NCBI GenBank assembly: GCA_030600605.1
Contig: JAUVLT010000009.1
Location: 1-41,000, forward strand
DNA length: 41,000 bases
Source of the DNA: Mycoplasmatota bacterium
Lineage (GTDB): Bacteria > Bacillota_I > Bacilli_A > Izemoplasmatales > Izemoplasmataceae
Direction of reading: 5' to 3'
The notes under the pieces are model-generated. The model worked only from the letters and a program-made list of their open reading frames with translations, was not told the origin of the DNA and did no database searches. The position numbers and the translations under genes are program-made. Positions 3,758 through 32,144 of the stretch are shown piece after piece. How positions within the stretch are numbered: position 1 is the stretch's first letter; the number at the start of each line of letters is the position of its first letter.

Positions 3758-4465
3758 ATGGCAATAATAATTGTTGGTAAAAACAGTATTTTAGAAGCAA
3801 TAAAAGTAGGCCATAAAATTCATGAAATATATATTTTAAAAGGTTCTAATAATGAATTTTTGTCATTAGCTATGGAAAAACATCTTAAGATAAAGGAACT
3901 TGATAAATATAATCTAAATAAAATTTTGCCACCAAATAATCAAGGTGTTGGAGCTTTAGTTGAAGAATATAAATATCAAACACTTGAAAATGTGATTAAT
4001 AACGACAAGCTAAATAAAGTATTTGTAATGCTTGATTCACTAGAGGATCCTCATAATTTAGGAGCAATTTTAAGAAGTGCAGATGCTTTTAATGTAGATG
4101 CAATAATTATCCCGAAGAATAGAAGTGTAAAATTAAATGCTACAGTTGCAAAAGTATCAGTAGGAGCAATAGAACATGTTGATGTTGTTGAAGTAACTAA
4201 TTTAACTCGAACAATTAAAACCCTTAAAAATAAAGGATTTTGGGTTGTAGGAACTGATGCATCAACAGACAAAACAATACATGATATTGATGTGGACACT
4301 AATCTTTGTGTTGTTATTGGTAACGAAGGAAAAGGAATTAGTAGACTTGTTAAAGAAAACTGTGATTATATCGTTAAAATTCCAATGAATGGACATGTTA
4401 ATAGTTTAAATGCAAGTGTTTCCGCAGCCTTGATCATTTACGAAATATATCATAAGAAGGGGTGA
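3758..4465 (+). CDS. rlmB: 23S rRNA 2'-O-ribose methyltransferase, RlmB/SpoU family
   Basis: A 235-residue SpoU (SPOUT) methyltransferase. The N-terminal substrate-binding part (about residues 1-75) is followed by the knotted domain. SpoU motifs are clear: LDSLEDPHNLGAILRSADAF (motif 1), VVIGNEGKGIS (motif 2) and IPMNGHVNSLNASVSAALII (motif 3). Relatives methylate G2251 of 23S rRNA using S-adenosylmethionine. The start follows AAAAAGGATGTGAT. A TAGAAT at 3727-3732 may be the -10 box; no good -35 is seen. The stop overlaps the Shine-Dalgarno of the sigma factor gene downstream. In B. subtilis, yacP sits between rlmB and sigH; here it is absent. Confidence 0.93.
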   Translation: MAIIIVGKNSILEAIKVGHKIHEIYILKGSNNEFLSLAMEKHLKIKELDKYNLNKILPPNNQGVGALVEEYKYQTLENVINNDKLNKVFVMLDSLEDPHNLGAILRSADAFNVDAIIIPKNRSVKLNATVAKVSVGAIEHVDVVEVTNLTRTIKTLKNKGFWVVGTDASTDKTIHDIDVDTNLCVVIGNEGKGISRLVKENCDYIVKIPMNGHVNSLNASVSAALIIYEIYHKKG

Positions 4466-27970: not shown

Positions 27971-28204
27971 ATGGCTAGAACTGGAAATTTCCGTAAAAGA
28001 CGTAAAAAAAGATGTTATTTCACAGATAACAAAATATCATATATAGATTACAAAAATGTTGAATTACTAAAAAGATTTATTAGTGATCGTGGTAAAATCT
28101 TACCTAAACGTGTCACAGGAACTAAAGCTAGATATCAATCTGAATTAAGTGTTGCAATTAAACGCGCACGTCATATGGCTTTACTACCATTTGTAAAAGA
28201 ATAA
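27971..28204 (+). CDS. rpsR: 30S ribosomal protein S18
   Basis: 77 residues. It begins [20 protein letters not shown] and contains [19 protein letters not shown] and [20 protein letters not shown], all conserved. It binds S6 and 16S rRNA on the platform. AAAGGAGGAAAA precedes it, overlapping the ssb stop. A strong terminator follows at once, closing the rpsF operon. Confidence 0.97.
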
Positions 28205-28230
28205 GACTCATATTTGAGTCTTTTTTTTCT
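28203..28230 (+). terminator. intrinsic terminator after rpsR
   Basis: AAGACTCA (28203-28210)/TGAGTCTT (28215-28222), loop TATT, then a T8 tract. Confidence 0.93.
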
Positions 28231-28242
28231 ATATTTTAGATT

Positions 28243-28270
28243 TTGAATTAAGTCTCAATTATGATATAAT
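28243..28270 (+). promoter_or_regulatory. promoter of gdpP-rplI-dnaB
   Basis: TTGAAT (28243-28248), 16 bp, TATAAT (28265-28270) with an upstream TGA (extended -10). Confidence 0.75.
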
Positions 28271-28295
28271 TATTAAGACAAAACGAGGTGATTGT

Positions 28296-30722
28296 ATGAA
28301 AGCACTATTCAAAGTTTTAGTTCCCATTTCAATAGCTTTAATCATACTAATAGTTATTATTTTTAGTGATAATGGTGTTTTTATTCTAATATTTTCAGGG
28401 GTTGTAATATTTGTAATGGCTAATGTTTATTTTCAAATTTTTTATTATCGAAGAAAAGATCAAAAGATCTCGTGGTTATCAAAAAAATTAAAAGATACTC
28501 AAAACCTTGTTGTTAGAAAAGATATAGCTGAAAAGAAAGTAATTGCTGAAATGCCACTTGGAATCATTTTATTTGACGAAGCATTAATAATAAAATGGGC
28601 TAATAATTGCGCTAAGGATATTTTTGAAAATGTTCTAGTAAAGAGAAATCTTGAAACTCTTTCAACAGAAATATTTAATAATCTTATTAATAAACAACCT
28701 AATAAGGTGCTTATAATGAAAATATACACTCATGAGTATGAAGTGGAATTTGATTTTGAAAATTTAATTATTTATTTAACACAAGTATCTGAAAGAGAAG
28801 AATTAAAAAGAAAATATGATGATGCTACTGATGTAATTGCTGTTTTAAATCTTGACAATTTAGACGATGCAATAAGTGTTTTAGATGTATCAGAAAGAAG
28901 TTACATTCAAGGGAGTTATTTAAAGGCTTTAGAGGATTGGGGAGAAGAATTTGGATTTTATTTAATTCCAATTGCTAATTCCAAACTTATTGCTGTTATG
29001 AATAAATCAAACTTGATTGATTTAATTGAAAATGAATTTAAAATATTGAATGATATTTCCGAAATATCAAAAGAAAATGATTTACTTGTAACTTTAAGTA
29101 GTGGAATTGCTTGTGCAAATACAAAGTTTAATAAACTAGGAGACATCGCTGAGGATGCTCTTAATTTAGCATTGTCACGTGGTGGAGATCAAATAGTTGT
29201 TAATATTGAAGGTAAGGATTTACGTTATTTTGGGGGTAATACAAATACTGCTGAAAAACGTACAAGGATTACAACGAGAATTAATACTCAGAAACTAGAA
29301 AAATTGTTTGAAGAAAGTCATAGAGTATTTATAATGCCACACATTCATCCTGATACAGATGCTATTGGTGCTGCAATGGGTATCTTAAAACTTGCTCAAA
29401 CATTTAATAAAGAAGCTTACATAATTATAGACTTAGATAATACTGACAAAACTGTTAAGAAGATTCTTCAGTTAATTGAGTATGAATATGTAATATTTTT
29501 AGATTATATTATTTCTCCTTCTTTAGCTTTAGACTATATTAACAGAGAAGATTTGCTTATTTTAGTGGATCATCATTCATTTGGACAAACAATGGAAGAA
29601 AAAGTTATAAAGAAAATAAAAAAACTTGTTATTATTGATCATCATAGAAAATTAGCTGATGCAGTACCTAATGCTTTAATTAGTCATATAGAACCTTATG
29701 CATCAAGCAGTGTTGAACTTGTAACTGAGATGATAGACTTATCTAGTAAAGATGTTGAAATAAATCAGTTTGAGGCAACAGTAATGTTATCTGGTATAAT
29801 GGTTGATACTAATAACTTTATCTATCGAACAGGATCAAGAACATTTGAGGCAGCTGCCATTTTAAGGAAATTTGGAGCTGACACATTTAAAGTTAAGACA
29901 ATATTAAGAGAAGGGTTAGACGAAATTCAATTAAAATCACAATTGCTTTCGCTTGCTGAAGTAATTCATTCAAAGTTTTCAATTGTTATAGTGCCAGAAA
30001 ATATCCCTACTTCAAGGAATTTATTAGCTAAAGTTGCTGATATGTTATTAGAAATTGATGATACAGTAGCATCTTTTGCTATCGGATATTTTGAAGAAGG
30101 AATGGTCGGAATAAGCGCTAGAAGTTTAGAAGGATTTAATGTTCAAATAATTATGGAAAAATTTAGTGGTGGAGGGCATCTAAATAACGCAGGTGCACAA
30201 ATTGAAACCAAAGATATCAAAAAAGTTAAAGCAGAGTTAATTGAATTTATTAATGAAGCTATTATGGAGGAAAAACCAATGAAGGTAATACTAATCAAAG
30301 ATGTAAAAGGGAAAGGGAAGAAAGGTGAGGTTATCGATGTAGCAGCTGGATACGGAAACTACTTGTTATCAAGTAAAAACGCTATTGAAGCAACAACTGA
30401 AAATTTGCTATCAATCGAAACTGAAAAAGCTAAGAAAGAAGAAATAGAACGTAAAAATTATGAGGATATGAAAGTATTAAAAGAAAAAATTGAAGCTGAA
30501 CCAGTAAAGGTTTTTGTTAAAATTGGTGAAAAAGGGAAATTATTTGGTAAAATAAATTCTAAACAAATAGCTCATGAATTCAAAAAACAAAATGGTATTG
30601 AAATAGATAAACGAAAAATTTTATTAAAAGATAATATTTCGGCATTAGGTAATTATACAATAGAAGTAAAACTACATAAAAATGTTCTTGCTAAAATAGA
30701 AGTTTTAGTTGTAGAAGAATAG
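28296..30722 (+). CDS. fused cyclic-di-AMP phosphodiesterase GdpP and ribosomal protein L9
   Basis: 808 residues. Two N-terminal membrane helices (about 7-25 and 28-48), a PAS-like region (about 70-140), a degenerate GGDEF region (about 170-310), then DHH and DHHA1 domains with HIHPDTD (349-355), DHH (425-427), DHH (448-450), DTNNF (504-508) and GGGH (625-628). These are the metal ligands and nucleotide site of GdpP, which breaks c-di-AMP to pApA. Residues 662-808 are a complete L9. In Bacillus gdpP and rplI are adjacent genes; here no stop separates them. Such fusions are annotated in Mollicutes. An internal Shine-Dalgarno suggests L9 is also made separately. dnaB follows 9 bases on. Confidence 0.93.
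30266..30281 (+). promoter_or_regulatory. internal Shine-Dalgarno and ATG for L9 within gdpP-rplI
   Basis: GGAGG (30266-30270), 8-nt gap, ATG (30279-30281), in frame with the long gene at codon 662. The ATG is exactly the normal L9 start ([16 protein letters not shown]). Confidence 0.75.
30279..30722 (+). CDS. rplI: 50S ribosomal protein L9, probable separate product from an internal start
   Basis: 147 residues, the full length of free-standing L9. The N-terminal rRNA-binding domain has [20 protein letters not shown] and [10 protein letters not shown]; then comes the long central helix (about residues 41-75) and the C-terminal domain with [20 protein letters not shown]9 binds domain V of 23S rRNA at the base of the L1 stalk. 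Because the GdpP part is membrane-bound and ribosomes need L9 in far larger amounts, initiation at this internal ATG is the simplest way to supply soluble L9. Proteolytic release from the fusion is the alternative. Confidence 0.65.
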
Positions 30723-30731
30723 AGGTGTATT

Positions 30732-32090
30732 ATGGAAAAAATTAGTCCTAATAATATGGAAGCTGAACAATCAGTTCTAGGTAGTATCTTTGTTGATCCG
30801 GGTACTATCAAAATCTTAATTGATGCTTTAAACTCAGATGACTTTTATACATATCGACATAAAGTTATTTTCACTGCTATGGTGGAATTATTTCAAGATG
30901 GAGTGGAAATAGATTATACAACCTTAACCAATATTCTTGAAACAAAAGATTTATTGAAAGATGCTGGGGGAATTGATTATATTTTGGGATTGATTAATTT
31001 TGTTCCTTCAATACATAATTTGCGTAACTATATAAATATTGTTAAAGATAAATCAATGACAAGAAAAATAATGGATGCTTGTCGAAGAATTATTGAAGAT
31101 GGATATGCTTCGGATGATGCTAAAGAGTTTTCGAATAATTCTGAGAAACTTATTTTTGATATTGTTAAGGACCGACGAACAAGTGATTTTATTCAAATCG
31201 GGAAAGTAATTGAAGAAGTAATTACTAAAGTTGAAAAAACAAATGAAAATAGTGGTAGATTAACAGGGTTAGACACTGGATTTGAAGAATTAAATGAGTA
31301 TACATTAGGATTGCAACCTTCAGAACTAACAATTATTGCCGCTCGTCCTTCGATGGGAAAATCAGCTTTTGCATTAAATATTGCAACCAATGTTGCTAAA
31401 ATGTCCTCAAAACCTAATGTTGCTTTCTTCTCTTTGGAAATGGGGAGTGATCAATTAGTTAGTAGAATGTTAAGCTCTGAATCAAGAATTCATAGTGATA
31501 AAATTCGAACTGGACATATATCTAATACCGAATGGAGCCAGCTAAACGTAGCTAGGGAAAGTTTATCAAAATTAAATATATTGTTTGATGATGCTGGTAC
31601 TGTAAAAATTACTGAAGTAAGACAAAAATGTCGTAAATTGGCTCAAGAGGGAAAATTAGATTTAGCAATCATTGATTACTTACAATTACTTAGTGGATCA
31701 AATCCAAGATCAAACCGCGTTCAAGAGGTTTCAGAGATTTCAAGAGTATTAAAAGAGATTGCTCGCGAATTAAAAATACCTGTAATCGCTTTATCTCAGT
31801 TATCACGTCAAGTTGAAAGAAGAGATGATAGAATACCAGTAATGGCAGACTTACGTGATTCTGGATCGATTGAACAGGATGCTGATGTAATCTTATTCCT
31901 ATATCGCGATGAGTATTATAAACCTAAAACAACAACACGCCCAAATCAAGTTGATATTATAATTTCTAAGAACCGTCAAGGTGCTACAAAACCTGAGGGA
32001 TTTAGATTGATATTTAATAAACAGTGTGGATATTTTGGGAATATAGAAACAAGTTATGATAGTGCAATGGGAGACATTGATTGGAAGTAA
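30732..32090 (+). CDS. dnaB: replicative DNA helicase DnaB
   Basis: 452 residues. The N-terminal domain (MEAEQSVLGSIFVDPG, about residues 9-100) joins by a linker to a RecA-like ATPase domain. Walker A is ARPSMGKS (204-211), Walker B LAIIDYLQLL, and the arginine-finger region DLRDSGSIEQDADVILFLYR is intact. A hexamer unwinds DNA at the replication fork (DnaC in Bacillus naming). It starts after AGAGGTGTATT, nine bases past the gdpP-rplI stop, and is cotranscribed with it, as is usual. No intein is present. Confidence 0.97.
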   Translation: MEKISPNNMEAEQSVLGSIFVDPGTIKILIDALNSDDFYTYRHKVIFTAMVELFQDGVEIDYTTLTNILETKDLLKDAGGIDYILGLINFVPSIHNLRNYINIVKDKSMTRKIMDACRRIIEDGYASDDAKEFSNNSEKLIFDIVKDRRTSDFIQIGKVIEEVITKVEKTNENSGRLTGLDTGFEELNEYTLGLQPSELTIIAARPSMGKSAFALNIATNVAKMSSKPNVAFFSLEMGSDQLVSRMLSSESRIHSDKIRTGHISNTEWSQLNVARESLSKLNILFDDAGTVKITEVRQKCRKLAQEGKLDLAIIDYLQLLSGSNPRSNRVQEVSEISRVLKEIARELKIPVIALSQLSRQVERRDDRIPVMADLRDSGSIEQDADVILFLYRDEYYKPKTTTRPNQVDIIISKNRQGATKPEGFRLIFNKQCGYFGNIETSYDSAMGDIDWK

Positions 32091-32113
32091 AAAAAATATA
32101 TTAAAAAAACAAG

Positions 32114-32144
32114 ACTTTGTAACTTTGGTTACAAGGTTTTTTTA
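32114..32144 (+). terminator. intrinsic terminator after dnaB
   Basis: ACTTTGTAAC (32114-32123)/GTTACAAGGT (32128-32137), one T-G pair, loop TTTG, then a T tract. Confidence 0.88.

Follow-up and report, generated by a model that had tools for sequence, protein, structure and literature searches.

Organisation of the fused gene

The DNA considered in the current analysis, referred to as the window, is a stretch of 41,000 nucleotides from the genome of a Mycoplasmatota bacterium of the order Izemoplasmatales. Its forward strand contains a single open frame that begins with an ATG at position 28296, ends with a TAG stop at 30720-30722 and comprises 808 codons with zero internal stops. An earlier note on this DNA had read the membrane-bound phosphodiesterase GdpP and the ribosomal protein L9 as one such frame with no stop between them, and this has been confirmed by translation and by Pfam assignments, which place the domains PAS_GdpP, GGDEF_GdpP, DHH, DHHA1, Ribosomal_L9_N and Ribosomal_L9_C in this order along the product (Table 1). 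A putative replicative helicase gene starts 9 bases past the L9 stop and appears to belong to the same transcription unit.

Table 1. Features of the fused gdpP-rplI gene and its surroundings in the window
Feature	Position	Strand	Basis
Terminator-like hairpin after rpsR, ahead of the fused gene	28203..28222	+	Hairpin search
Promoter-like site TTGAAT-16-TATAAT, TG before -10, upstream of the fused gene	28243..28270	+	Position only; such sites are no commoner in the region than in shuffled sequence
Shine-Dalgarno of the long frame, GAGGTGAT	28285..28292	+	Sequence
Fused gdpP-rplI frame, 808 codons	28296..30722	+	Translation; NF011110 aligned over 56-834 of 838
Membrane helices at the N terminus (residues 2-22, then the first part of helix 27-84), with the helical stalk	28296..28547	+	AlphaFold2 secondary structure; hydrophobic sequence
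PAS domain PF21370 (PAS_GdpP)	28527..28787	+	Pfam
Degenerate GGDEF domain of GdpP, PF24898 (GGDEF_GdpP)	28845..29216	+	Pfam
DHH phosphodiesterase domain PF01368	29322..29798	+	Pfam
DHHA1 domain PF02272	30012..30257	+	Pfam
Internal Shine-Dalgarno GGAGG, within codons ATG GAG GAA of the GdpP tail	30266..30270	+	Sequence; conserved across fused families; unpaired in predicted RNA fold
Internal start codon ATG of free L9	30279..30281	+	Sequence; conserved across fused families
rplI, complete ribosomal protein bL9, 147 aa	30279..30722	+	TIGR00158, PF01281, PF03948
Putative dnaB-like replicative helicase gene, downstream in the unit of the fused gene	30732..32090	+	Sequence and usual synteny
Terminator-like hairpin closing the unit of the fused gene and the dnaB-like gene	32111..32140	+	Hairpin search

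The N-terminal part has the organisation known for GdpP, with transmembrane helices followed by PAS, GGDEF, DHH and DHHA1 domains. The catalytic residues of the DHH domain (H349, D353, D355, D425, D448, H449 and H450) and the GGGH motif of DHHA1 (625-628) are invariant among 30 relatives, and the enzyme part is a putative c-di-AMP phosphodiesterase GdpP. The C-terminal part matches the L9 model TIGR00158 over positions 1-148 with 118.8 bits, for a cut-off of 58.6; both the N and the C domain of bL9 have been found, and all 23 of the 23 near-invariant bL9 residues are present.

AlphaFold2 predicts both the GdpP part and the L9 part to be folded, with a linker of about three residues joining the final helix of DHHA1 (641-657) to the opening strand of L9 (661-666), the relative placing of the domains being uncertain (pTM 0.42). 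Since the predicted link is so short, it is hard to picture how a tethered L9 would be seated in the ribosome.

The internal start site

The claim that GGAGG, eight bases and an in-frame ATG stand exactly at the normal L9 start holds good: the GGAGG at 30266-30270 is separated by the spacer AAAAACCA from the ATG at 30279-30281, which is in frame with the long open frame, and the protein read from this ATG begins as bL9 usually does. The 16S rRNA tail GGATCACCTCCTT, a normal anti-Shine-Dalgarno (anti-SD), has been identified in the genome, so the internal Shine-Dalgarno (SD) has a pairing partner. RNA structure at the gdpP-rplI junction shows nothing unusual (z 0.23 for the predicted fold), and the SD is unpaired in it.

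A second, stand-alone rplI, which the earlier note had named as an observation that would speak against it, was sought in the genome of the window (115 contigs, 99.71% complete) and none was found. A copy hidden elsewhere has been ruled out on the basis of the single L9 match in this nearly complete assembly, and the fused L9 is the sole copy.

Distribution and origin of the fusion

L9 has been detected in 83 of the 90 genomes of the order to which the window belongs, and practically all the uncut matches lie inside open frames of about 735-885 residues. In the sample of the class, fused frames fill the families f1, f2, f3, f7, f12, f16, f18 and f22, the other families having a separate rplI. 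The named near relatives are metagenome-assembled genomes called Mycoplasmatota bacterium and Candidatus Izemoplasma sp. An artefact of sequencing or of the genetic code has been rejected, as an equal open frame is present in almost every genome of the order and in genomes of seven further families. A 397-residue L9 frame in two genomes (G216 and G269) has been dismissed as an ordinary overlap in a higher-GC genome.

The fusion may have arisen once or more than once. On the GdpP tree fused families are intermingled with unfused ones, with at least two changes of state, yet a single fused clade is not rejected (AU p 0.33), and the L9 tree places all fused copies on one side with a support of 85.

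Among unfused relatives the start of rplI ranges from 23 bases inside gdpP to a few bases past its end, the sampled genes overlapping by 23 or 4 bases or else lying a few bases apart, and the SD of rplI is located in or beside the end of gdpP. The simplest origin of the fusion would be loss of the gdpP stop or a shift of the gdpP frame into that of rplI, the start and SD of rplI, already situated at the end of gdpP, being retained by selection. In two genomes (G091, locus L203, and G383, locus L204) gdpP and rplI share one frame with one TAA between them, an arrangement that is the stage just before or just after fusion.

Conservation of the nested start

The comparison set, from 74 genera, comprises 247 distinct fused genes that are not accompanied by a tandem free rplI. 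The first L9 codon is a start codon in 245 of them (225 ATG, 19 GTG and 1 TTG); the two exceptions, L312 and L315, have an ATG one or three codons upstream (three in L315). Inside the long frame GTG and TTG are read as valine and leucine, and it is therefore the start codon rather than methionine that is conserved. All 19 valines at this position are encoded by GTG, which accounts for only 14% of the valine codons in the genes concerned.

The SD is conserved likewise. The mean energy of pairing with the anti-SD is -10.3 kcal/mol at the 247 junctions as against -3.0 kcal/mol at 3,936 in-frame ATGs elsewhere in these genes, and an energy of -6 kcal/mol or lower is reached by 95.1% of the junctions and 9.8% of the other ATGs. 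The junction SD is stronger than that of other in-frame ATGs in 74 of 74 genera (Wilcoxon p 8e-14) and exceeds synonymous shuffles in 62 of 74 (Wilcoxon p 3e-11). The bias is seen in individual codons: glutamate at codon -4 is encoded by GAG in 72 of 82 genes (20% elsewhere), and at codon -5 glutamine by CAG in 32 of 36 (17% elsewhere) and lysine by AAG in 32 of 37 (26% elsewhere). When 368 aligned Glu, Lys and Gln columns are ranked by their use of G-ending codons, the top two are the columns of the SD.

The tail peptide of GdpP varies by family (QEEKP, KEELT, GGDNT and EGGNG, for example) while the SD is constant. In families f3, f12 and f16, which have glycine-rich tails, synonymous shuffles yield SDs nearly as strong, so that in these families the signal lies in the peptide and not in the choice of codons. 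Six genes of genus g144 in family f12 (L257, L298, L303, L276, L260 and L315, the last with its displaced ATG) have a weak SD and keep the ATG. The genomes of this genus are of 0.3-0.9 Mb and its members are probably phytoplasmas, in which initiation may be less dependent on the anti-SD.

The comparison suggested in the earlier note, namely whether GGAGG, eight bases and ATG are kept while synonymous sites around them drift, is thus positive across the 247 fused genes. Both the internal SD and the start codon are conserved beyond the needs of the protein, as in-frame internal initiation would demand, and these alignments indicate that the internal start is under selection.

Lineages with a tandem free rplI

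Five genomes have, 15-70 bases downstream of the fused gene, a free rplI that is equipped with a separate SD and start: G338, G344 and G350 of genus g91 (family f7), and G163 and G575 of genus g88 (family f22). On the L9 tree the free copies group with the fused copies of their own family, which indicates two separate tandem duplications; the argument that follows is thus based on two independent events only, in five genomes.

The internal SD has been lost in all five duplicated genomes (-0.1 to -2.4 kcal/mol), and in the three genomes of g91 the internal start codon has also been replaced, by AAG, AAG and ACT. The fused domain retains 14-16 of the 23 near-invariant L9 residues and the free copy 20-21, while the fused L9 has 23 of 23 in nine of ten sampled single-copy relatives. 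Such joint decay of the nested start and of the ribosomal residues would be expected if the nested start were the source of free L9.

Some of the conserved positions, G24, F90, G91 and K112, are altered in both lineages (loci L194, L196 and L197; L186 and L240), and these residues may be required solely in the ribosome. In a further genome of g91, G168, which is 97% complete, neither L9 nor GdpP was found apart from a match to the DHH family (E 8.8e-7), whereas three of its congeners have the fusion and the tandem free rplI; the whole unit has apparently been lost. In genome G031 a very divergent stand-alone L9 is present as a second copy (L002, on the 3.5-kb contig G031:C172), yet the internal SD of the fused gene is kept. 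As this copy is on a very long branch of the L9 tree and the assembly is 6% contaminated, it is likely to be foreign.

These observations bear on two other explanations of the single frame. According to one, the fusion alone is translated, and L9 is either released by a protease or serves the ribosome while tethered. The long product must indeed be made from an open frame, and AlphaFold2 folds both of its parts with the short linker described above. This explanation is nevertheless very improbable, for it gives no reason why a start codon, GTG and TTG included, and an SD should stand exactly at the first L9 codon, and it leaves the synonymous codon bias and the loss of the site beside a free rplI unexplained. 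It would also tie a ribosomal protein one-to-one to a membrane enzyme, presumably a poor match in amount.

The other takes the internal SD and ATG to be an unused relic of the unfused operon. The site may well be ancestral, as unfused relatives carry the rplI SD in the corresponding stretch. A relic, however, would hardly be retained in eight families and at least 74 genera across GdpP branch lengths near one change per site, nor would it show synonymous bias or disappear promptly from the two lineages that have gained a spare rplI, and we regard this account as scarcely credible.

Probable nested initiation and the expression of free L9

It is highly probable, judging from the conservation of the internal start and SD, that one mRNA with two nested in-frame starts yields both the GdpP-L9 chain and free L9. 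Ribosomes that start at 28296 would produce a membrane-bound chain of about 90 kDa; those that bind the GGAGG at 30266 and start at the ATG at 30279 would produce the ordinary 147-residue L9, the form expected in the ribosome. As no stop separates the two parts, GdpP would be made only with L9 attached, and since gdpP has its own SD and start with no stop after it, the long product would be made whenever gdpP is read through. We infer from the DNA that both proteins are produced, and in what ratio; the strength of the internal SD suggests the surplus of free L9 that had been proposed, and it is presumably the free form that enters ribosomes, exclusively or for the most part.

Free L9 could also be derived mostly from a shorter mRNA that begins inside gdpP and is translated from the same internal SD and ATG. 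Promoter-like matches do occur within the frame, as at 29308-29335, and such an mRNA would decouple the amount of L9 from that of GdpP. The region has 27 promoter-like sites as compared with 25.9 in shuffled sequences, so that these sites carry no weight, and a shorter message appears distinctly unlikely. It would in any case move only the start of the mRNA and leave the nested translation start unaffected. The proposal that free L9 is made by nested initiation is supported by the conservation of the start and the SD, by codon bias and by decay beside a free rplI, and is very likely correct.

The tethered L9 domain

The earlier note had further suggested that L9 tethered to a membrane enzyme links ribosomes to c-di-AMP turnover. 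As a selected function this is not supported, for the fused L9 has lost 7-9 of its 23 near-invariant positions in the genomes that have a separate gene for free L9, which argues that a ribosome-competent tethered L9 is not maintained there.

The fused state could still be under selection in its own right, the L9 domain on GdpP having a role in dimerisation, in placement near ribosomes or in sensing, beside the supply of free L9. The fusion has been kept by almost every genome of the order and by related families, and in the duplicated lineages, where the domain serves as part of the fusion only, it remains full length and constrained, with dN/dS of 0.115 (G163/G575) and 0.33 (G344/G350) as compared with 0.15 for the GdpP part in both pairs. 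Against this, the g91 fused domain changes about twice as fast as the rest of the protein, conserved L9 residues have been lost in both lineages, dN/dS below 1 may reflect foldability or recent divergence, and nested coding by itself would keep the frame together in single-copy genomes. Selection on the fused state is accordingly a possible but doubtful addition to nested initiation.

A more specific form of this suggestion is that, in addition to a supply of free L9 by nested initiation, the tethered copy has become a working regulatory or dimerising domain specific to GdpP. It is based on the finding that the fused copy has shed ribosomal residues and yet stays full length and constrained; with dN/dS below 1 a non-ribosomal role is conceivable, and since the residues lost are the conserved ones of L9, that role would not be to link GdpP to ribosomes. 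We consider such a domain rather unlikely.

Relation to known systems

The fusion as a named family and in-frame internal initiation as a mechanism are already known. As the earlier note had stated, fused annotations exist: the fusion has been catalogued in NCBIfam as NF011110 (PRK14538.1, putative bifunctional signaling protein/50S ribosomal protein L9). The architecture of the window protein is alike, a complete L9 being read in frame after the GdpP domains, although its score of 617.8 bits is under the curated equivalog cut-off of 707 bits. This cut-off is reached in 41 of 392 genomes, and among the matches listed all are of families f12, f16 and f22. The model names one bifunctional product and makes no mention of the nested start.

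In Streptococcus pyogenes gdpP is co-transcribed with rpl9 (PMC3711813). The unfused gdpP-rplI operon of Bacillota has the gene order of the window and an rplI SD in or beside the end of gdpP, but it has a stop between the genes, which the window lacks. In Grosjean et al. 2014, L9 is counted as present in most Mollicutes, fusions being flagged only in a supplementary table.

In-frame internal initiation has been described for cheA, infB and clpB (PMC11005335) and for archaeal Cas8b/Cas11b (PMC11899642). These genes are like the fused gene in having one frame, two starts and a shorter C-terminal product, putative in the window. They differ in that the short product of the window is a core ribosomal protein for which there is no other gene, and its long product carries an unrelated membrane enzyme. 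In Thermus, the L34 gene rpmH is nested in the RNase P protein gene rnpA and both are expressed (Feltens 2003, as related in PMC9841429). A ribosomal protein gene is likewise nested within another gene there, but by that account its frame is not that of rnpA and a single SD serves both starts, whereas in the window there is one frame with separate SDs and the nested gene is C-terminal.

The view that the nested start has been little noted agrees with a literature search, most subscription journals being outside its range, in which no paper connecting GdpP with an L9 fusion or with a nested start was found; the same search revealed no ribosomal protein that depends on in-frame internal initiation across whole families.

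Implications

The annotation of hundreds of genomes lists a GdpP-L9 fusion but lacks an rplI; the evidence presented here points to a fusion with a hidden, selected rplI inside it. The evolutionary evidence for this nested rplI is unusually clear, and the decay of the site where a spare rplI has appeared serves as a natural knock-out control. Whole families would then rely on in-frame internal initiation for the free form of a core ribosomal protein, and the fused gene would be a clear example of such dependence. This reading would correct the annotation and explain how a ribosomal protein has survived fusion with a membrane enzyme, and it offers a clean system for asking whether the tethered copy matters to the control of c-di-AMP.
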